A stretch of 10,186 bases of DNA from an uncultured Alistipes sp. (lineage in GTDB: Bacteria; Bacteroidota; Bacteroidia; Bacteroidales; Rikenellaceae), in assembly GCA_949840605.1 (NCBI GenBank), contig CATKXN010000102.1:1-10186 (forward strand), read 5' to 3'. Shown here one piece after another: positions 1,668 to 10,186 of the stretch (the stretch's first letter is position 1; each line of letters starts with the position of its first letter). Under the pieces are notes generated by a model. That model was not told where the DNA came from and made no database searches. It saw only the letters and a program-made list of their open reading frames with translations. The translations under genes were made by a program, and so were the position numbers.

Positions 1668-3653
1668 ATGAAAAAAACGATGTTTGCTCAAATCCGAACC
1701 TTACTGGCCGTCGTCTGCCTGGGAGGATTCCTCTTCGCATGCAGCGACAAACCGAAGGTCGAAATCCCTGCCGACCGGCTCGAGATCACAGGCGTGGTCA
1801 TCCCCTCTGAACTCGAAGTGCTCCGGGGCGGGGAGGTAACTATCGCCGGAAGGGGGTTTGCGGAAGGGGACCGCTTCAAACTCACGTCCGCGGAGCATCC
1901 TTCGGAAAGTTACCTGGTCGAAGCCCATTCGATCACCGACGAAAGCGCCGGATTTACGCTCCCCGAACTGCTTGCCACCGGAACCTGGAAGATCGCCATC
2001 GTCCGCGGCGAACGCACGCTCACGCTGGGCACCGTCAAACTGACCGTCAATCCCGTCGTCAGCATCCCCGACATCTCCGGCATGAATATAAAGGGAGCGG
2101 TCCTCTGCGGCGACCGGCCCGTTGCAGGCGTTGTCGTATCCGACGGATTCGCCGTGACACGGACCGACGGAGACGGCGTCTACCACCTCAGGTCGGACAA
2201 GAAAAGCGGATATGTCTTCATTTCCCTGCCGGGCGGTTACGAGGTCCCGGTCGTGAAGACCGTCCCCCAGTTCTACAAACGCCTCTCCCAACCGGCTGCG
2301 GTGATCGAACAGCGGGACTTCATCCTGACACGGCGGCCCAACGACAGGCACCGGATGGCGGTCTTCACGGATACGCACCTGGCCGGCCGCAACAACGACC
2401 GCACCCAGTTCGCCGGCGGGTTCCTTGCCGAGATGAACGGACTCGTCGCCGATGCGAAAGCCTCGGGCACGAACCTCTACTGCATGGCTCTGGGCGATCT
2501 GGCCTGGGACCTCTACTGGTACGACAAATCGTATAACCTCGGGAACTACCTCGATGAGATCTCGTCGCTCGACTGCGCGGTTTTCAGTGTCCCGGGCAAC
2601 CACGACAACGACCCCTACGAGACCGACGACTGGCTCTGCGAGGTTCCGTTCCGCCGGATCATCGGTCCGACTTATTACTCGTTCAACCTCGGCAGGGTCC
2701 ACTACATCCTGCTCGACAACATCGTGTACATCAACACCGGAGGTTCCCAGGGCACCGTCGGATCGCGGAATTACGACGCCCGAATCGTTTCCGACCAGAT
2801 CGCCTGGCTGAAGAAGGACCTGGCGACGATCTCCGACAAGAGCACCCCGATCGTCGTGGGAATGCATATCCAGCTCTTCGGATATCCCTCGCTCGACGCC
2901 TCGGGCAGCCAGACCCAGGTCTTCCGGCTCGACAATGCCGAAGAGCTGACGGCCTGCTTCAGCGAATTCACCGACGTGAGCTTCCTCACGGGACACACCC
3001 ACATGAACTACAACGTCACGCCCCGCGACAGCAGCCTGCCGAACATCCGCGAGCACAACATCGCGGCCGTATGCGCCACCTGGTGGTGGACGGGCAAAGA
3101 GGGTTATGCGGACAACCACATCTGCGTCGACGGATCGCCCGGCGGCTACAAGCTATTCGACATCGACGGCACCCGGTTCGGGTGGCACTACAAAGCCATC
3201 GGCAAGGACAGCGACTACCAGTTTCGCACCTACGATCTCAACGAATCGCTGATCACCGTCGAGAAGTACTGCCCCGAAACCTCCGTTCCCGCCGAAGCGG
3301 CCAAAAACACTTTCGGCTACAACCTCCCCAACAAAAACAACGAGGTGCTTATCAACGTCTGGGACTGGGATTCCGACTGGACGCTCACCGTCACGGAGCT
3401 GCCCGCACGGAAGAATCTGACGGTACAACGCGTTTTTGCCTACGACCCGCTCCATATCATCTCCTACAACATGCAGCGCTACGCACATCGTGCGACAAGC
3501 CTCACCTTCCCCACCAAGCGGACGGTCCACCTGTTCAAGGCCACGGCATCTTCAGCCGTTTCGACCCTGGAAATCACGGCCGTAAACGGCCAGGGCGTCT
3601 CCTATACGCAGACCATGACCCGCCCCAAACCGCTCGCCTTCGACATGCAGTGA
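1668..3653 (+). CDS. Calcineurin-like metallophosphoesterase, predicted lipoprotein
   Basis: This is a 661-aa predicted lipoprotein. The N-terminus MKKTMFAQIR, a hydrophobic stretch and the lipobox LFAC give lipidated Cys25 followed by SDKPK. Residues about 38-130 look like an immunoglobulin-like/IPT-type beta domain (ITGVVIPSELEVLRGGEVTI, then VKLTV). Residues about 140-218 resemble the MetallophosN beta domain. The catalytic domain carries D235-x-H237, G276-D277, G310-N-H312-D313, H400 and G442-H-T-H445, the full two-metal set of the calcineurin-like superfamily. Residues about 470-661 match in position and style the MetallophosC domain of Bacteroidetes homologues. The substrate is unknown; a periplasmic or surface phosphomonoester or phosphodiester is inferred. 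It appears monocistronic, between a divergent promoter region and its own terminator. The start is set by the signal peptide. It is unrelated to the his operon beyond adjacency. Confidence 0.9.
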   Translation: MKKTMFAQIRTLLAVVCLGGFLFACSDKPKVEIPADRLEITGVVIPSELEVLRGGEVTIAGRGFAEGDRFKLTSAEHPSESYLVEAHSITDESAGFTLPELLATGTWKIAIVRGERTLTLGTVKLTVNPVVSIPDISGMNIKGAVLCGDRPVAGVVVSDGFAVTRTDGDGVYHLRSDKKSGYVFISLPGGYEVPVVKTVPQFYKRLSQPAAVIEQRDFILTRRPNDRHRMAVFTDTHLAGRNNDRTQFAGGFLAEMNGLVADAKASGTNLYCMALGDLAWDLYWYDKSYNLGNYLDEISSLDCAVFSVPGNHDNDPYETDDWLCEVPFRRIIGPTYYSFNLGRVHYILLDNIVYINTGGSQGTVGSRNYDARIVSDQIAWLKKDLATISDKSTPIVVGMHIQLFGYPSLDASGSQTQVFRLDNAEELTACFSEFTDVSFLTGHTHMNYNVTPRDSSLPNIREHNIAAVCATWWWTGKEGYADNHICVDGSPGGYKLFDIDGTRFGWHYKAIGKDSDYQFRTYDLNESLITVEKYCPETSVPAEAAKNTFGYNLPNKNNEVLINVWDWDSDWTLTVTELPARKNLTVQRVFAYDPLHIISYNMQRYAHRATSLTFPTKRTVHLFKATASSAVSTLEITAVNGQGVSYTQTMTRPKPLAFDMQ

Positions 3654-3670: not shown

Positions 3671-3709
3671 GGGGCCGCACCCTGAACGGAGGCGGCCCCG
3701 ATTTTTTTT
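3671..3709 (+). terminator. Intrinsic terminator of the phosphoesterase gene
   Basis: GGGGCCGC (3671-3678) pairs perfectly with GCGGCCCC (3692-3699) around a 13-nt loop, in which CC/GG (3681-3682 with 3688-3689) could add two pairs. It is followed by eight T residues at 3702-3709. It starts 17 nt after the phosphoesterase stop and ends 10 nt before the his promoter -33 element, insulating the two transcription units. Confidence 0.9.
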
Positions 3710-3719
3710 CGGCCCGAAT

Positions 3720-3751
3720 TTTGCTTTTTCCGAATGAAAGCCCTATATTTG
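3720..3751 (+). promoter_or_regulatory. Bacteroidetes-type promoter of the his operon
   Basis: TTTG at 3720-3723 and TATATTTG at 3744-3751 match the primary-sigma consensus of Bacteroides (-33 TTTG, -7 TAnnTTTG) with no mismatch and a 20-nt spacer, the usual distance. The expected transcription start is about 3756-3759, giving only 11-14 nt before the leader-peptide ATG at 3770 and a hisG leader of about 185 nt. Confidence 0.85.
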
Positions 3752-3769
3752 TCCCCGACAACGACAGAA

Positions 3770-3823
3770 ATGACGATTTTCAACCATATCCATCATCACC
3801 ATCACCGCTTTACCGAGGGGTAG
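3770..3823 (+). CDS. hisL: his operon leader peptide (six His in 17 residues)
   Basis: A 17-codon frame ATG...TAG encodes MTIFNHIHHHHHRFTEG. His occupies residue 6 and residues 8-12 (codons 3791-3805), using both CAT and CAC. The enterobacterial HisL peptide (16 aa, seven consecutive His) has the same design, although this one is not obviously homologous outside the His run. The frame starts 11-14 nt after the predicted transcription start and lies just ahead of an antiterminator and a terminator hairpin that precede hisG. Its role is inferred to be the sensor of charged tRNA-His: a ribosome stalled on the His codons lets the operon be transcribed. There is no evident Shine-Dalgarno sequence (the upstream bases are A-rich: CGACAGAA), as is normal in this phylum. 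The peptide itself probably has no function after synthesis. Confidence 0.9.
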   Translation: MTIFNHIHHHHHRFTEG

Positions 3824-3872
3824 GTCGATCATGTATATGTGAAACAACGCAATTATATGAAGCTCACCCCCT
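3815..3872 (+). promoter_or_regulatory. Antiterminator hairpin of the his attenuator
   Basis: By hand pairing, three stacked helices form one long hairpin. The outer helix is 3815-3825 with 3862-3872: core GGGGT (3817-3821) to ACCCC (3866-3870), then GGT (3823-3825) to GCT (3862-3864) with G.U wobbles, and two mismatches. The middle helix TCATGTA (3829-3835) pairs with TATATGA (3854-3860), seven pairs with one wobble. The inner helix is TGTG (3838-3841) to CGCA (3848-3851). The 3' arm is the 5' arm and loop of the terminator, so the two structures exclude each other. The 5' arm covers the leader stop codon (3821-3823): a ribosome finishing the peptide would mask it, while one stalled on the His codons would not. 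No energy was calculated. Confidence 0.7.
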
Positions 3873-3887
3873 GCGGGTGGGCTTTTT
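3860..3887 (+). terminator. Attenuator (intrinsic terminator) in the his leader
   Basis: GCTCACCC (3862-3869) pairs with GGGTGGGC (3875-3882) over eight pairs, one of them a U.G wobble, around the 5-nt loop CCTGC. AA (3860-3861) can extend the stem with the first T residues. Five T residues (3883-3887) follow. The hairpin lies 38 nt after the leader-peptide stop and 56 nt before the hisG start. It is inferred to stop transcription when histidine is plentiful. The T-tract is short, so some read-through is likely. Confidence 0.88.
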
Positions 3888-3943
3888 CATATGCCGAACC
3901 GCAGGTGGGTGTCGCGAAACGAAACAATCAACACACACCGAAT

Positions 3944-4795
3944 ATGCTGAGAATAGCCATCCAGGCCAAGGGCCGACTGAACGAACAGAGCATCGAACTG
4001 CTTTCCGAAGCAGGCATCCGCGTTGCCGAGAGCAAGCGCAAACTCATCTCCCGCGCCGAGGGATTTCCGCTGGAAGTCCTCTACCTGCGCGACGACGACA
4101 TTCCGCAGGCCGTAGCCATGGGCGTCGCCGACGCGGGCATCGTGGGACTGAACGAGGTCGCCGAGAAGGGTTTCCCGGTCGAACAGGTCATGGACCTCGG
4201 GTTCGGAGGCTGCCGCATCTCGCTGGCCGTGCCCAAATCCACGCCCTACGAGGGTCCCGACTTCTTCCGCGGCAAGCGCGTCGCCACCTCCTACCCCAAC
4301 ATCCTCGCCCGCTACTTCGCCGAGCGCGGCATCGAGGCCGAAATCCACACCATCGAAGGTTCCGTGGAAATCGCCCCGGCCGTAGGCATGGCCGACGCCA
4401 TCTTCGACATCGTCTCTTCGGGCGGCACGCTCATCTCGAACGGGCTCACGGAGGTCGAAAAGGTCTTCTTCTCCGAGGCGGTGCTCATCGCAAACCCCGG
4501 TCTCGACAGCGACAAACGCCGCGAAATCGAGCAGCTCACGTTCCGCTTCAACTCGATCCTCGACAGCCGCGGAATGAAATACGTGCTGATGAACCTCCCG
4601 AAGGAGCGTCTCGACGACGCCATCCGCATTCTCCCCGGGATGCGCAGCCCGACGGTGCTGCCGCTGGCGCAGGAGGGGTGGTGCTCGATCCACGCCGTGA
4701 TCGCCCAGGACCAGCTCTGGGAACGCATCGAACGCCTCAAGGAGATCGGGGCCGAAGGCATCCTGATCCTGGCCCTCGAAAACATGATCCGCTAA
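3944..4795 (+). CDS. hisG: ATP phosphoribosyltransferase, long form
   Basis: This enzyme condenses ATP with PRPP to phosphoribosyl-ATP, the committed and feedback-inhibited step of histidine synthesis. The protein is 283 aa and starts MLRIAIQAKGRLNEQS, the conserved HisG N-terminus. The family signature and PRPP-binding stretch runs from about E142 (EIAPAVGMADAIFDIVSSGG, then TLISNGL) to about residue 168. Residues about 207-283 (LMNLPKERLDDAIRILPGMRSPTV to the end) form the C-terminal ACT-like regulatory domain of the long form. It should therefore be a hexamer inhibited by histidine and need no HisZ. The frame stays open upstream to a GTG at 3839 and an ATG at 3857, but that extension runs through the attenuator hairpin and matches no HisG, so the ATG at 3944 is chosen. 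It is the first structural gene, 15 nt ahead of hisD, controlled by the upstream attenuator. Confidence 0.97.
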   Translation: MLRIAIQAKGRLNEQSIELLSEAGIRVAESKRKLISRAEGFPLEVLYLRDDDIPQAVAMGVADAGIVGLNEVAEKGFPVEQVMDLGFGGCRISLAVPKSTPYEGPDFFRGKRVATSYPNILARYFAERGIEAEIHTIEGSVEIAPAVGMADAIFDIVSSGGTLISNGLTEVEKVFFSEAVLIANPGLDSDKRREIEQLTFRFNSILDSRGMKYVLMNLPKERLDDAIRILPGMRSPTVLPLAQEGWCSIHAVIAQDQLWERIERLKEIGAEGILILALENMIR

Positions 4796-4810: not shown

Positions 4811-6106
4811 ATGGAAATCCTCAACATCTACCCCAACCCCGACCGCCCCGACTGGGCTTCCCTCACCGAACGCTGCACGCGGCAGGAGGAGGAGATCACC
4901 CGTCAGGTGGCCTCGATCCTCGACGAGGTGCGCACCGGCGGCGACCGGGCCCTGCGCGACATCACCCGCCGCATCGAGGGCCGCGATTGCGAAACGTTCG
5001 AAGTCCCCGCCGACGTCCGCCGCGCGGCCGCGTCGCTCGTCCCCGCGGCGCTGAAGGAGGCCCTCGCCACCGCCAAGGCCAACATCGAAGCCTTCCACCG
5101 CGCCCAGCTGCCCCCCGAGGTCAGCGTTGAACCGATGCCGGGCGTGCGGTGCGTCCAGCGCGCGCTGCCCATCCGCCGCGTGGGGCTCTACATCCCCGGC
5201 GGCAAGGCTCCGCTGTTCTCCACGGTGCTGATGCTGGCCGTTCCGGCCCGCGTCGCCGGATGTGCGGAGGTCGTGCTCTGCACCCCCGCGCGTCCCGACG
5301 GCACCATAGCCCCCGAAATCCTCTATGCCGCCGACCTCTGCGGCGTGGACCGCGTCTACGCCGTAGGCGGCGCGCAGGCCGTGGCGGCCCTGGCCTACGG
5401 CACCGAGAGCATCCCGCGCGTGGACAAGATCTTCGGCCCAGGCAACCGCTACGTCACCAAGGCCAAACAGCTGGTCGGAGCCAACGATGTGGCCGTCGAT
5501 CTTCCGGCAGGCCCCTCGGAGGTGCTCGTGCTGGCCGACGACGGAGCGTCGCCCGACTTCGCCGCCGCCGACCTCCTCTCGCAGGCCGAACACGGGGGCG
5601 ACAGCCAGGCGGTGCTGGTCTGCGCCTCGGAACGCTTCGCCCGCGACACCCGGCGCGCCGTCGAAGAGCAGCTGCAGCAGCTCCGGCGCGGCGAGACCAT
5701 CCGCGAAGCGCTCCGCCAGAGCCGTATCGTGGTGCTCGACAGCCGCGAAAAGATGATCGACTTCGCCAACGCCTATGCCCCCGAGCATCTGATCGTCTCG
5801 ATGCGCGACGCCTGGGAGGCCGCCGCGCAGATCACCGCCGCCGGCAGCGTCTTCATCGGGCCGTGGTCACCCGAAAGCGCCGGCGACTACGCCTCGGGCA
5901 CCAACCACACGCTGCCCACGGGCGGCTGGGCGCGGGCTTACAGCGGCGTCAACACCGACTCGTTCCTGCGCAAGATCACCTATCAGGAACTCACCCGCGA
6001 CGGGCTTTCGGCCCTCTCCCCGGCGATCGTCGCCATGGCCGAGGCCGAAGGGCTCGGGGCGCACGCCGCCGCGGTCCGCGTCCGTCTGAAAAAAGAACGC
6101 TCATGA
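4811..6106 (+). CDS. hisD: Histidinol dehydrogenase
   Basis: This enzyme carries out the last two steps of the pathway, oxidising L-histidinol through histidinal to L-histidine with two NAD+. The protein is 431 aa, close to the usual 430-435. Zinc ligands are visible as Q258 and H261 (SQAEHGGDSQ), D359 (GDYASGTNH) and H418 near the C-terminus. The catalytic pair E325-H326 is in APEHL. Each lies one residue before its Escherichia coli counterpart (Q259, H262, D360, H419, E326, H327). The GPGNRYVTKAKQLV and DLPAGPSEVLVLAD segments are further family hallmarks. It begins 15 nt after hisG, and its stop overlaps the hisC start as ATGA, which suggests translational coupling. Nothing unusual is seen in the protein. 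Confidence 0.98.
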   Translation: MEILNIYPNPDRPDWASLTERCTRQEEEITRQVASILDEVRTGGDRALRDITRRIEGRDCETFEVPADVRRAAASLVPAALKEALATAKANIEAFHRAQLPPEVSVEPMPGVRCVQRALPIRRVGLYIPGGKAPLFSTVLMLAVPARVAGCAEVVLCTPARPDGTIAPEILYAADLCGVDRVYAVGGAQAVAALAYGTESIPRVDKIFGPGNRYVTKAKQLVGANDVAVDLPAGPSEVLVLADDGASPDFAAADLLSQAEHGGDSQAVLVCASERFARDTRRAVEEQLQQLRRGETIREALRQSRIVVLDSREKMIDFANAYAPEHLIVSMRDAWEAAAQITAAGSVFIGPWSPESAGDYASGTNHTLPTGGWARAYSGVNTDSFLRKITYQELTRDGLSALSPAIVAMAEAEGLGAHAAAVRVRLKKERS

Positions 6107-7137
6107 AGACCCTCGAACAGCTCGTGCGCCCCAACATCCGGGCGCTGAAACCCTACTCCACAGCCCGCGACGAATACGCCGGCGGAGAGATCTCGACGTG
6201 GCTCGACGCCAACGAAAATCCCTACGAAAACGGCGTCAACCGCTATCCCGACCCGCACCAGAAGGGCCTGAAACAGCGCATTGCCGCGCTGAAAGGCGTG
6301 CGCGAGGAGCAGGTCTTCATCGGCAACGGCAGCGACGAGGCCATCGACCTCGCCTACCGCATCTTCTGCCGTCCGGGCGTCGACAACGCCGTTTCGATCG
6401 CCCCGACCTACGGCATGTACCGCGTCGCGGCCGACGTCAACGACATCGAGATGCGCGAGGTGCCCCTCGGCGCGGATTACGCACTCCCGGTCGAAGCCCT
6501 GCTGGCTGCGGCCGACGAGCGGACCAAACTGCTGTGGCTCTGTTCGCCGAACAACCCAACGGGCAACGCCTTCCCGGCGGGCGACATCGAACGGCTCATC
6601 CGTGGTTTCAACGGCATGGTCGTGCTCGACGAAGCCTACATCGACTTCGCCTCCGGGCCGGGATTCCTCGCGCGACTCGACGAGTTCGAGAACCTCATCG
6701 TCCTGCAAACCCTCTCCAAGGCGTGGGGCATGGCGGGGCTGCGCCTCGGGCTGGCGTTCGCGTCGGCCTCCGTCGCGGCGCTCTTCGCCCGCGTGAAATA
6801 CCCCTACAACATCAACTGCCTGGCGCAGGCCGCCGTCGCCGAACGGCTCTCGTTCGACATCGCGGGTCAGGTGGCACAGCTCCGCGCCGAGCGCGACACC
6901 GTCGCCCGTGTCCTCGCCTCATGTCCGGCGATCGAACGGGTCTACCCCTCCGAGGCCAACTTCGTGCTGGTCCGCACCCCCGATCCCGACCGGCTCTACG
7001 ACGCGCTGATCGCCGCCGGGGTCATCGTCCGCAACCGCTCGCGCATCCCGGGGTGCGAAGGTTGCCTGCGCATCACCGTCGGACGCCCCGACGAGAACGC
7101 CCGGATGCTGGAAACCGTCAAAAACTTCACCCTATGA
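6103..7137 (+). CDS. hisC: Histidinol-phosphate aminotransferase
   Basis: This is a PLP-dependent fold-type I aminotransferase that converts imidazole-acetol phosphate and glutamate to L-histidinol phosphate and 2-oxoglutarate. The protein is 344 aa, near the family norm of about 350. Motifs in order are LDANENPY near the N-terminus, GNGSDEAIDL, APTYGMY, CSPNNPTGN (147-155, with the PLP-contacting N151 region), LDEAYIDF with D176 and Y179, the Schiff-base lysine K206 in TLSKAWGMAGLRLG, and near the C-terminus the substrate-carboxylate arginine in CLRITVGRPDEN. The chosen ATG overlaps the hisD stop by 4 nt. The same frame stays open far upstream inside hisD, but that is only a high-GC shadow. 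The gene overlaps hisB by another ATGA. Broad-substrate aminotransferases share this fold, but operon position makes HisC secure. Confidence 0.97.
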   Translation: MKTLEQLVRPNIRALKPYSTARDEYAGGEISTWLDANENPYENGVNRYPDPHQKGLKQRIAALKGVREEQVFIGNGSDEAIDLAYRIFCRPGVDNAVSIAPTYGMYRVAADVNDIEMREVPLGADYALPVEALLAAADERTKLLWLCSPNNPTGNAFPAGDIERLIRGFNGMVVLDEAYIDFASGPGFLARLDEFENLIVLQTLSKAWGMAGLRLGLAFASASVAALFARVKYPYNINCLAQAAVAERLSFDIAGQVAQLRAERDTVARVLASCPAIERVYPSEANFVLVRTPDPDRLYDALIAAGVIVRNRSRIPGCEGCLRITVGRPDENARMLETVKNFTL

Positions 7138-8261
7138 AAAAAGCCCTCTTCATCGACCGCGACGGCACCGTCATCGCCGAACCCGCCGACGAACAGATCG
7201 ACAGCCTCGAAAAACTCGCGTTCGTGCCCGGAGCCATCTCCGCGCTGAAAGCCCTCGCGGGCCTCGGGTTCGACCTCGTGCTGGCCACCAACCAGGACGG
7301 CTTGGGCACCGCGTCCTTTCCCGAGGAGACCTTTTGGCCGGCGCACGAAAAGATGCTCTCGACGCTGCGGGGCGAGGGCGTCGCGTTCGACGACCAGCTG
7401 ATCGATCGCACCTTCGAGGCCGACAACGCCCCCACGCGCAAACCCCGCACGGGGATGTTCGGGAACTACCTCGACGGCAGCTGCGACCTCGCCGCGAGTT
7501 ACGTCATCGGCGACCGCGTGACCGACGTCCTGCTGGCCCGCAACCTCGGGGCCCAGGGCATCCTGCTGGCGCCCGTCGCCGAGGGGCTCCGGATGCTCGA
7601 CGAGGCCGGGGCCGCCGACGCCTGCGCGCTGGTCACCGACTCGTGGGCCGAGATCGCCGAATTCATCCGCCGCGGCGAACGCCGGGTCGAAATTCGGCGC
7701 GAAACCCGCGAGACGCAGATCACCGTGCGCCTCGACCTCGACGGCCGCGGGGATTTCAACGGCGAGATCTCCACGGGCCTGCGCTTCCTCGACCACATGC
7801 TCGCGCAGATCGCCCACCACGGCGGCGTGTCGCTGGCCGTGGACGCCCGGGGCGACCTCGACATCGACGAACATCACACGATGGAGGATGTGGCCATCAC
7901 CCTGGGCGAAGCCATCGACCGCGCGCTGGGCACGAAGGCCGGCATCGCCCGCTACGGCTTCGCCCTGCCGATGGACGACTGCCGGGCGCTGGTGCTCCTC
8001 GACTTCGGGGGCCGCATCGACTTCGAGTGGGACGCCGAATTCCGCCGCGAGCGGGTCGGCGACGTCCCGACGGAGCTATTCCGCCACTTCTTCCACTCGC
8101 TCGCATGCGCCGCGCGGTGCAATCTCCAGATCTCGGCCCGCGGCGACAACGACCACCACAAGGCCGAAGCCGTCTTCAAAGCCTTCGCCCGCGCCCTGCG
8201 CATGGCCGTCGGCCGGCAGGGCTTCGGATACGACATTCCCAGCAGCAAAGGCGTCCTATGA
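7134..8261 (+). CDS. hisB: Bifunctional histidinol-phosphatase / imidazoleglycerol-phosphate dehydratase
   Basis: This is a 375-aa fusion of two pathway enzymes. Residues 1 to about 165 are a HAD phosphatase that hydrolyses histidinol phosphate: the DxD motif is D8-R-D10-G-T, TNQDG gives motif II, K103 lies in TRKP, and VIGDRVTD gives motif IV. Residues about 190-375 are imidazoleglycerol-phosphate dehydratase, with metal-binding FLDHMLAQIAHHGG, DEHHTMEDVAITLGEA, LFRHFFHSL and NDHHKAEAVFKAFARAL, and the usual PSSKGVL end. The E. coli phosphatase half binds a structural zinc through C93, H95, C101 and C103; the aligned residues here are D91, T93, A99 and T101, so that site is absent (see findings). 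The gene overlaps hisC and hisH by 4 nt each. The long open frame inside hisC ahead of 7134 is not coding. Confidence 0.97.
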   Translation: MKKALFIDRDGTVIAEPADEQIDSLEKLAFVPGAISALKALAGLGFDLVLATNQDGLGTASFPEETFWPAHEKMLSTLRGEGVAFDDQLIDRTFEADNAPTRKPRTGMFGNYLDGSCDLAASYVIGDRVTDVLLARNLGAQGILLAPVAEGLRMLDEAGAADACALVTDSWAEIAEFIRRGERRVEIRRETRETQITVRLDLDGRGDFNGEISTGLRFLDHMLAQIAHHGGVSLAVDARGDLDIDEHHTMEDVAITLGEAIDRALGTKAGIARYGFALPMDDCRALVLLDFGGRIDFEWDAEFRRERVGDVPTELFRHFFHSLACAARCNLQISARGDNDHHKAEAVFKAFARALRMAVGRQGFGYDIPSSKGVL

Positions 8262-8854
8262 TAGCGGTAGTCGATTACGATACGGGCAACCTGCGGTCGG
8301 TTGCCGACGCCCTGCACCGCGCCGGGGCCGAATTCATCCTCACGGCCGACCCCGCGCTGCTGCGCCGGGCCGACCGGGTAATCCTGCCGGGGGTCGGAGA
8401 GGCCTCGTCCGCGATGGCGAAACTCCGCGAACGGGGGCTCGACGCCGTGATCCCCGCGCTCACGCAGCCCGTGCTGGGCATCTGCATCGGCATGCAGCTG
8501 ATGTGCCTCGCAAGCGAGGAGGGCGACGCCCGCTGCATGGGCATCTTCCCGACGCGGGTCCGGCGGCTCCCGACGCTCACAGCTGCGGGCGAGCGGCTCA
8601 AAGTCCCCCACGTGGGCTGGGACACGATTTCGGAGCTCCGCACCCCGCTGTTCGACGGCATGACGGAAGACACCTATGTCTATTACGTCCACTCTTTCGC
8701 GGCGGAACCGTGCCCGGCGACCGTCGCCTCGACCCGCTACGGAGCGCCGTTCAGCGCGGCGCTCGGCCGCGACAACTTCTTCGGCACGCAGTTCCACCCC
8801 GAAAAGAGCGGGCGGGCGGGCGCGCTGATCATACGGAATTTCCTAAACCTTTGA
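8258..8854 (+). CDS. hisH: Imidazole glycerol phosphate synthase, glutaminase subunit
   Basis: This class I glutamine amidotransferase hydrolyses glutamine and passes ammonia through the HisF barrel to make imidazoleglycerol phosphate and AICAR. The protein is 198 aa, typical length. The catalytic triad is visible: nucleophile C76 in GICIGMQLM, then H180 and E182 in GTQFHPEKS. The N-terminus MIAVVDYDTGNLRSV and the LPGVGE oxyanion-strand segment are HisH hallmarks, as are KVPHVGWD and YYVHSF. The start codon overlaps the hisB stop (ATGA); hisA follows after 4 nt. The partner hisF is two genes downstream, so both subunits come from the same transcript. Confidence 0.97.
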   Translation: MIAVVDYDTGNLRSVADALHRAGAEFILTADPALLRRADRVILPGVGEASSAMAKLRERGLDAVIPALTQPVLGICIGMQLMCLASEEGDARCMGIFPTRVRRLPTLTAAGERLKVPHVGWDTISELRTPLFDGMTEDTYVYYVHSFAAEPCPATVASTRYGAPFSAALGRDNFFGTQFHPEKSGRAGALIIRNFLNL

Positions 8855-8858
8855 CATT

Positions 8859-9587
8859 ATGATCGAAATCATACCGGCAACGGACATCATCGGCGGCCAG
8901 TGCGTGCGACTGACACAGGGCGACTACGCCAGCCGAAAAACCTACTACCGCGACCCGCTCGAAGCCGCCCTGCGCTTCGAGGAGGCGGGCGTCCGACGCC
9001 TGCACATGGTCGACCTCGACGGCGCCAAGGCTTCCGAGCCCCGCAACCTCGCGGTGCTGGAGCGCGTGGCGACGCGGACGGGACTCGAAGTGCAGTACGG
9101 CGGCGGCATCAAGAGCCGCGAGGCCCTGCGCAGCGTCTTCGACGCCGGGGCCGACCGCGCCATCTGCAGCAGCCTCGCCGTCCGCGAACCCGAACGCTTC
9201 GCCCAATGGCTCGCGGAGTTCGGCCCCGAACGGCTGATCCTCGGGGCCGACATCCGCGACGGCGCGGTGGCCATCCAGGGCTGGCTGGAAAGTTCGGCCC
9301 TCACGGCGCCCGAACTGATCGAACGTTTCCTCCCGCAGGAGCTCGCGCAGGTCATCTGCACCGACATCTCCCGCGACGGCATGCTGTGCGGCCCTTCGGC
9401 TGCCTTCTACGCCGGGCTGCAAAGCCGCTTCCCCGCCGTGGAGATCACCGTCAGCGGCGGCATCTCGGCGATGGGCGACATCGAAGAGCTCGACCGGCAG
9501 GGCCTGCGGAGCGTCATCGTCGGCAAAGCCCTCTACGAAGGACGCATCACCCTCAAAGAACTCGAACGATGCTTGCGAAACGCATAA
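8859..9587 (+). CDS. hisA: ProFAR isomerase (phosphoribosylformimino-AICAR-P isomerase)
   Basis: This (beta-alpha)8-barrel enzyme carries out the Amadori rearrangement of ProFAR to PRFAR, the substrate of HisH/HisF. The protein is 242 aa, the usual size. The general acid/base aspartates are D9 in [15 protein letters not shown] and, on the opposite half-barrel, D169 in CTDISRDGM. Phosphate-binding glycine-rich segments are seen after strand 3 (QYGGGIKS) and strand 7 (VSGGIS). The half-barrel repeat shared with HisF is evident. It starts 4 nt after the hisH stop, and its last 19 nt overlap the hisF start in another frame. Nothing atypical is seen. Confidence 0.97.
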
Positions 9588-10186
9588 TCCCCTGCCTCGA
9601 CATCCGCGACGGCCAGACCGTCAAGGGGATCAACTTCGTGGGGCTCAAGCAGGTCGGCGACCCCGTGGAACTCGGTGCGAAATACGCCGCCGAGGGGGCC
9701 GACGAACTGGTCTATCTCGACATCAGCGCTTCGGAGGAGGGCCGCCGGACCTTCACCGAACTGGTCGCACGCATCGCCGCGCGCATCGACATCCCGTTCA
9801 CTGTCGGGGGCGGCATCTCGTCGGTCGACGACGCCGGACGCCTCCTCGACGCCGGAGCCGACAAGGTCACCCTCAACAGCGCCGCCGTGGCCAACCCCGC
9901 GCTGATCGACGCCATCGCGGCCAAATACGGCTCGCAGTTCGTCGTGGCGGCGATCGACGCCCGGACGGTCGGGGACCGCTGGGTCGTAACGACCCACGGC
10001 GGCAAACGCCCCACCGACCGCGAACTCTTCGCCTGGGCCCGCGAGGCCGCCGACCGCGGTGCGGGCGAGATCCTCTTCACCTCGATGGACCACGACGGAA
10101 CCCGCGGAGGTTACCCCGGCGCCACCGCGGCCCGGCTGTCCGAACGTCTGCACATCCCCGTCATAGCCTCGGGGGGAGCCGGTAAC
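9569..10186 (+). CDS. hisF: Imidazole glycerol phosphate synthase, cyclase subunit (cut by right window edge)
   Basis: This is the cyclase barrel that receives ammonia from HisH and closes the imidazole ring of IGP, releasing AICAR. The window holds the first 206 of about 250 codons, with no stop. The N-terminus [20 protein letters not shown] is diagnostic. The two catalytic aspartates are at D11 and D130 (VVAAIDAR), the same numbers as in Thermotoga maritima HisF. Phosphate-binding GGGISS follows strand 3, and [13 protein letters not shown] and IASGGAGN mark later strands. The ATG chosen lies 19 nt inside hisA, which gives the canonical N-terminus; no other start in this frame would keep the first strand. 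In related genomes hisI/hisE usually follows; it is not visible here. Confidence 0.96.

Follow-up and report, generated by a model that had tools for sequence, protein, structure and literature searches.

A putative ribosome-mediated histidine attenuator ahead of the his operon of an Alistipes species, and related leaders in the class Bacteroidia

The window analyzed here is a stretch of 10,186 nt from an uncultured Alistipes sp. (contig CATKXN010000102.1). It contains a his operon on the + strand whose first gene, hisG (3944-4795), was assigned with NCBIfam model TIGR00070 (200.9 bits) and also with TIGR03455. The genes hisD, hisC, hisB (bifunctional), hisH and hisA follow on the same strand (4811-9587; NCBIfam assignments), and hisF (9581-10186, + strand) is incomplete at the window end. 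The latter covers positions 5-210 of the 254 positions of TIGR00735, and its score of 257.7 bits, which lies below the whole-protein cut-off of 294.55, is that of an incomplete gene. A gene with a weak phosphodiesterase match (32.6 bits, cut-off 225) is located upstream on the same strand as the leader (1668-3653), and the leader region described below (3720-3887) sits between this gene and the his operon. Two minus-strand genes oppose the phosphodiesterase-like and his genes: an acyl-CoA synthetase-like gene cut at the window edge (1-795), and the regulator-like gene that it adjoins (800-1357), which has a weak PuuR match below the cut-off. The HisG protein of the window is 93% identical to that of Alistipes montrealensis (locus L001; Bacteroidota, class Bacteroidia, family Rikenellaceae), 84-90% identical to those of loci L002-L017, and 65-77% identical to those of the remainder of the 80 nearest loci.

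The leader region contains a promoter, a short open reading frame (ORF) and a terminator, all on the + strand. A first-pass annotation made from the letters had listed these three elements, and re-reading of the sequence found each of them in place. The promoter is of the Bacteroidota type known for sigma-ABfr (3720-3751) and consists of a -33 element TTTG (3720-3723), a 20-nt spacer (3724-3743) and the -7 element TATATTTG (3744-3751). The ORF, MTIFNHIHHHHHRFTEG, has 17 codons (3770-3823, stop codon TAG at 3821-3823) and includes six His codons, five of which are consecutive (CAT CAT CAC CAT CAC, 3791-3805) and the sixth of which is located at 3785-3787. The short ORF therefore carries tandem codons for the operon's own amino acid, as is required of an attenuator. 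A short gene of this kind may well be missed by annotation. The 120 nt that separate the leader stop from hisG contain the other element that an attenuator requires between leader and first gene, an intrinsic terminator (3861-3887), which is evident from both the sequence (stem-loop 3861-3883, T-run 3883-3887) and the predicted fold. Thus, the fold of region 3857-3891 has an energy of -17.6 kcal/mol (z -3.85), that of region 3788-3891 has a z of -3.18, and in both cases 0 of 200 shuffles were as good. A simple terminator scan, which gave 5 sites in the whole window versus 7.8 expected, omitted this terminator. Together these results establish that a leader, a promoter and a terminator are present ahead of the his operon.

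Relatives were searched for similar leaders using as criterion an ORF of 7-35 codons, with four or more His within eight residues or three consecutive His, that ends at least 40 nt 5' of hisG. Counting over 203 loci, with hisG-upstream regions of at least 200 nt, a His-rich short ORF was found on the sense strand in 142 regions and on the opposite strand in 3; three mononucleotide shuffles gave 0, 1 and 3 of 203. When the same criterion was applied to the other 19 amino acids the sense counts ranged from 0 (Trp) to 49 (Ser). In the best-ORF form of the criterion, hisG is preceded by a His-rich leader in 97 of the 123 class-wide loci and in 42 of the 80 nearest loci; with the window added the latter become 43 of 81, and the total is 140 leaders. 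A search of 295 genomes of the class gave a HisG match in 127, from which the class-wide loci derive after omission of G157, G182 and G200 (as fragmentary or scoring below the cut-off) and of G001 (identical to L001); these loci may include species that are also among the nearest loci. His codons and terminator, for which the first-pass annotation had proposed a conservation check, persist in relatives, and the other residues and the arm sequences change. Among the putative his attenuators found across the class, the window is an ordinary case. Conservation of the TAG stop as a part of the arm described below was considered and rejected as a general feature: the class-wide leaders end with TAA (39), TGA (36) or TAG (22), and the 43 nearest leaders, including that of the window, with TAG (30), TGA (7) or TAA (6).

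By this criterion a leader is absent in 26 of the 123 class-wide loci and in 38 of the 80 nearest loci. Most of these 38 (32 loci) carry labels other than Alistipes or Rikenellaceae, among which are Muribaculaceae, Bacteroidaceae, Bacteroides, Prevotella, Prevotellamassilia and Barnesiella. Those labeled Alistipes or Rikenellaceae are L037, L041, L048 (which has just 50 nt of upstream sequence), L054, L057 and L070. Inspection by eye revealed a TTTG promoter element shortly before hisG in several of the 38 leaderless loci. The criterion overlooks some likely or degenerate leaders (L053, L054, L037 and L070). Loci L037 and L070 have the usual terminator and a matching arm, but their leader frames contain few His and many Arg codons, which may reflect either decay or a changed sensor.

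A TA..TTTG motif was found at most 75 nt from the leader ATG in 119 of the 140 leaders, as compared to 4.9% in shuffles. The distance from TTTG to the leader ATG in these 119 leaders, which have the strict -7 motif, has a median of 18 nt (quartiles 11 and 23); in the window, where the leader ATG is located at 3770, it is 18 nt. A second TTTG is located 16-24 nt further 5' in 73 of the 130 leaders that have a strict or relaxed -7 motif. The published sigma-ABfr consensus is TAnnTTTG, with TTTG near -33 (PMC7366714); the model used in a sigma-70 promoter scan of the window does not cover a promoter of this TTTG type. If transcription starts a few nt after TTTG, then the 5' UTR of the window leader would be about 10-15 nt long. 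For Bacteroides thetaiotaomicron, the same source gives 5' UTRs of 23 nt for most mRNAs and of less than 10 nt for about 3.7% (PMC7366714). None of the sequences GGAGG, AGGAG or GAGGT occurs at positions -16 to -4 in any of 135 ATG leaders, and A is the commonest base at positions -5 to -1 (0.44-0.54). The little use of Shine-Dalgarno (SD) sequences to which attention had been drawn for this leader is hence borne out, and is widened to these ATG leaders.

Next to the terminator, an attenuator needs an alternative structure. In the minimum-energy folds of regions 3757-3891 and 3757-3888, which represent ribosome-free RNA, the His codons are paired with 3822-3842 (structure 3771-3851, + strand), and the whole leader folds into this His-codon hairpin plus the terminator. 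The first-pass annotation had proposed an alternative hairpin. A stable hairpin is indeed predicted at 3829-3860 (+ strand), but it does not exclude the terminator: the lowest-energy structure of 3822-3891 contains both this hairpin and, next to it, the terminator core. Since the two coexist, this hairpin cannot by itself be the antiterminator, and it was discarded in that role. More likely, the antiterminator is formed by the sequence GGGGUAGGU (3817-3825, + strand), which starts at the end of codon 16, spans the stop codon and was identified by duplex and state folds, paired with the sequence GCUCACCCC (3862-3870, + strand) around the inner hairpin that it encloses. The latter sequence would be a switch arm, being both the 5' side of the terminator and the 3' side of the antiterminator. 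The first paired base of the 5' arm is the twelfth one after the last His codon.

The pairing between these arms was analyzed in 123 loci having a leader and a terminator below -8 kcal/mol (42 nearest loci including the window, and 81 class-wide loci); exactly equal leader regions occur in only one pair among them (L102 and L103). Pairing was sought between the region up to 55 nt after the last His codon and the 5' arm of the terminator. The best pairing averages -13.2 kcal/mol and overlaps the stop codon in 81 loci. It starts at a median of 11 nt past the last His codon (quartiles 8 and 14), a figure that mostly counts one unpaired base; taking the first paired base instead gives a median of 12 nt (quartiles 9 and 15), and 11 nt for the window. 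The start falls 5-17 nt past the last His codon in 115 of the 123 loci, as compared to 31% in shuffles. As the footprint of a ribosome extends about 12 nt beyond the first base in the A site, the arm would begin at the expected leading edge of a ribosome that has stalled on the last His codon. Arms were better than mononucleotide shuffles at the 5% level in 75 of the 123 loci and not in the other 48. When tested against the terminator arms of other loci, the median percentile was 0.13, and 31 of the 123 loci were at or under 5%. The percentile of the window is 0.59, meaning that 59% of the other loci's terminator arms bind its arm at least as well. Many arms share the core GGCTTACC, and for this reason the arm of the window is not special and the swap control is weakened. 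Variants of the arm exist, such as GGCTTACC combined with the leader sequence GGTAGGC and ACCCGTCTGAG combined with CTCAGGCGAGG, and each leader fits its own terminator.

Covariation was analyzed in the 67 of the 123 loci that have both anchor motifs, 61 of which are distinct. Position a-1, a variable position beside the shared core, can pair in 45 of the 61 loci, versus a mean of 22.7 and a maximum of 33 in 2000 permutations. An excess of pairing was also observed for position a-2 (33 of 61, mean 23.5, p 0.001) and for position a+2 inside the core (57 of 61, mean 52.7, p 0.0035). No excess was observed in these 61 loci for positions a-3 and a-4, and positions on the other side gave p values of 0.06-0.07 at best. 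After thinning to 40 loci with less than 75% identity, a-1 pairs in 27 (mean 13.0, maximum 22 in 3000 permutations), through G-C, C-G, A-U and U-A pairs, and a-2 pairs in 21 (p 0.036). After thinning to 9 loci with less than 65% identity, a-1 pairs in 7 (p 0.011). Further thinning leaves 2 loci and is uninformative; relatedness was thinned and not removed. A control in which the register was slid over five positions (40 loci) gave one p value of 0.003 and others of 0.13 or more. These comparisons of aligned arms indicate that the antiterminator arm covaries with the terminator arm in relatives.

We also folded the window leader in states that differ in the position of the ribosome. In the stalled state, RNA was folded from 3816 (A site on the last His codon) to 3872 (3' terminator arm not yet made). 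The antiterminator is then the minimum-energy fold, with -20.8 kcal/mol and 10.9 expected pairs: 3817-3821 pairs with 3866-3870 and 3823-3825 with 3862-3864, and the inner hairpin is enclosed. The same fold was obtained for RNA from 3804, with the A site at the first codon of the His run. With the ribosome at the stop codon (RNA from 3834), only the terminator and a four-pair hairpin remain, with 10.8 expected terminator pairs. In the absence of a ribosome, and before synthesis of the 3' arm, the antiterminator is also favored (10.4 expected pairs). When the ribosome is stalled and the terminator is complete, the minimum is the terminator plus the inner hairpin (-24.6 kcal/mol). As the full-length stalled state favors the terminator, antitermination must rest on the order of folding. 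At least five antiterminator pairs are expected in 118 of the 123 loci; the mean of a 5'-shuffled control reaches five in 27 of them. At the level of fold, placement and covariation, then, the leader has a predicted antiterminator that would exclude the terminator, that would be masked by a ribosome at the stop codon and that would be free when the ribosome stalls.

In agreement with the proposal of the first-pass annotation, conservation, arm placement, covariation and state folds argue that the leader is very probably a ribosome-mediated transcription attenuator of the his operon that senses the supply of charged tRNA-His. From these features, all obtained by computation, we infer the following course from transcription start through ribosome footprint and stalling to termination or read-through. 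The ribosome would start on the leader ORF about a dozen nt from the 5' end of the RNA. When histidyl-tRNA is plentiful it would reach the stop codon (3821-3823) and cover 3817-3833, leaving the switch arm at 3862-3870 free to form the terminator, and transcription would end near 3887. When histidyl-tRNA is scarce it would stall in the His run, its front edge reaching no further than about 3815; 3817-3825 would then be free to pair with 3862-3870 around the inner hairpin. This pairing would block the terminator and RNA polymerase would continue into hisG.

A variant of this attenuator would keep the inner hairpin (3829-3860) as antiterminator, acting against an outer extension of the terminator stem (AUAUGAA paired with UUCAUAU). 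The stability of the hairpin fits with this, as does the overlap of its 3' side with the outer extension in the fold of 3757-3891. However, a hairpin that stands beside the terminator core would only trim the stem, and relatives differ in the length and sequence of the stretch that separates the arms, the arm at the stop codon keeping its place. We consider this variant improbable.

Terminators below -8 kcal/mol are located downstream of 123 of the 140 leaders; in the other 17 either none was found (10) or the terminator is weak (7). Relatives without a clear intrinsic terminator show some recurrent features. Leaders ending in ..HHSS* are present in L100, L118, L120, L121, L105 (weak hairpin only) and L155 (above the length cut-off and left out of the counts), with the stop codon 96-206 nt before hisG and within a short self-complementary hairpin of the TTCCTCC-TGA-GGAGGAA type; L100, L120 and L121 have a second stem in common (CCGGTGA...TTCACC). 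The leaders of L156, L158, L173 and L192 end in ..NR or ..IR, with the stop 58-69 nt before hisG; in these four loci no terminator was found, a hairpin joins the last His codons with the codons preceding the stop, and the sequence TGTATGTTTCTACGCGAAATAACA after the leader is identical. L158, the member of this group that was scanned, gave no Rfam match. L149, L153, L161, L170 and L189 have a CGCC...GGCG hairpin over the last codons and a stop 68-82 nt before hisG, and their terminators are weak or absent.

Such His leaders without a terminator imply that another output may exist in the class. They also bear on the idea that the window leader acts on translation or stability of the hisG mRNA, by translational attenuation or reinitiation, its hairpin being only a processing site. 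In favor of this idea, three groups of relatives have His leaders 58-102 nt before hisG that are not followed by a clear intrinsic terminator, yet the window has a strong stem-loop with a T-run within the stretch between leader stop and hisG, as have the 123 leaders counted above, and we regard such a role of the window leader as very unlikely. That the His run is due to chance, or is part of a small His-rich protein that binds metal, the terminator belonging to the upstream same-strand gene ending at 3653, can practically be dismissed: chance yields such ORFs in 0-3 of 203 regions as against the 142 observed, a promoter stands between that gene and the leader, and the His codons and the geometry persist where other residues differ.

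Leaders of related design were seen by eye ahead of other operons. In L251, upstream of ilvD in A. montrealensis, the peptide MNALNHSNIIVITLLLVVLRR is followed by TAA, by GGGAGAAAGG and by a terminator with the 5' arm CCTTTCTCCC; all ten bases of the arm past the stop are complementary to the 5' arm of the terminator, and the design is the same as that of the his leader. L251 and L255 both have Ile/Leu/Val-rich leader peptides before a terminator, the arm being less clear in L255. Three of 19 ilvD loci pass the leader filter, and the third (L269) has no terminator in the part inspected. Among 17 pheA loci, 4 pass each of two filters and L237, L241 and L246 pass both; these three have Phe/Tyr runs followed by a terminator. 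A Trp leader ahead of trpE-like genes was rejected: no credible case was found among 30 chorismate-binding loci, many of which are perhaps not trpE, and the one that passed a loose filter has no terminator in the stretch inspected.

In Enterobacteria, HisL is a short leader ORF with a His run followed by an intrinsic terminator before hisG. The window leader resembles this system (Rfam His_leader, RF00514) in having a short His-run ORF and an intrinsic terminator before hisG, and would respond to the same signal. It differs from HisL in lacking an SD sequence, in that TTTG ends 18 nt before the ATG, and in that the antiterminator arm includes the stop codon. The comparison with Rfam His_leader that had been suggested at first gave no match in the window: RF00514 was not among the matches listed for the whole window up to E 5, nor for 3700-3960 up to E 10. 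The leader would therefore work like HisL without matching that RNA family. At the gathering score, no Rfam 15 family was found in the window or in the 20 of 203 relative loci scanned, and T-box or riboswitch models were not among the matches up to E 5 (window) or E 10 (3700-3960). Models Thr_leader (RF00506, 21.6 bits), Phe_leader (RF01859, 18.3 bits) and Trp_leader (RF00513, 14.3 bits) gave the best sub-threshold matches of operon-leader families over leader and terminator; their gathering scores are 55, 55 and 41, so the window is not a member of these families, and its regulatory codons are those for His.

One published case concerns the same phylum and gene. In Flavobacterium psychrophilum, strong clues for leader-peptide attenuation before amino-acid biosynthesis operons were presented in 2021; structured 5' elements listed there, those of hisG and pheA among them, gave no Rfam hits and recur in other Flavobacteriaceae genera (PMC9723704). 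The section of that paper on the hisG element does not describe a peptide, arms or a mechanism, nor occurrence of the element outside the family. Another His-codon leader outside the Proteobacteria, in a different phylum and before different genes, is that of hisZ/hisS in bacilli, whose peptide is reported to have a stretch of His codons (PMC2965389). According to the same text, leader-peptide systems had to its authors' knowledge been shown only in Proteobacteria and Actinobacteria, and 'Bacteroid-' does not occur in its main text (PMC2965389). Short ORFs reminiscent of leader peptides are mentioned for B. thetaiotaomicron in a paper whose main text does not contain the word histidine (PMC7366714). 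Among open-licence papers, hisG, leader peptide and Bacteroid- were found together only in PMC4833913 and PMC9723704. No open-licence paper was found that combines Bacteroidota, leader peptide and transcription attenuation. A comparative study of attenuation by Lopatovskaya (2010) may already include Bacteroidetes. The mechanism is known; its class-wide spread, its anatomy and the absence of SD sequences are little described in the open-licence literature searched.

For classical attenuation to work, a ribosome must follow RNA polymerase closely from the first few dozen nt onward. On a broader reading, for and against which we see the case as evenly poised, the class Bacteroidia has its own, probably ancient, family of his attenuators with an SD-free and almost leaderless start, and hence dependable ribosome loading beside the promoter and early coupling; in some lineages, the terminator would have been replaced by another output behind the same kind of His peptide. 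If true, this would mean dependable early coupling in a phylum in which ribosome loading and coupling are little described. Annotators would also gain an RNA family that escaped every Rfam model in the 21 sequences scanned. It involves no new mechanism, but an under-described regulatory family in Bacteroidota, and the signs of attenuation through much of Bacteroidia mean that a native reporter could be used to test coupling and SD-free initiation.
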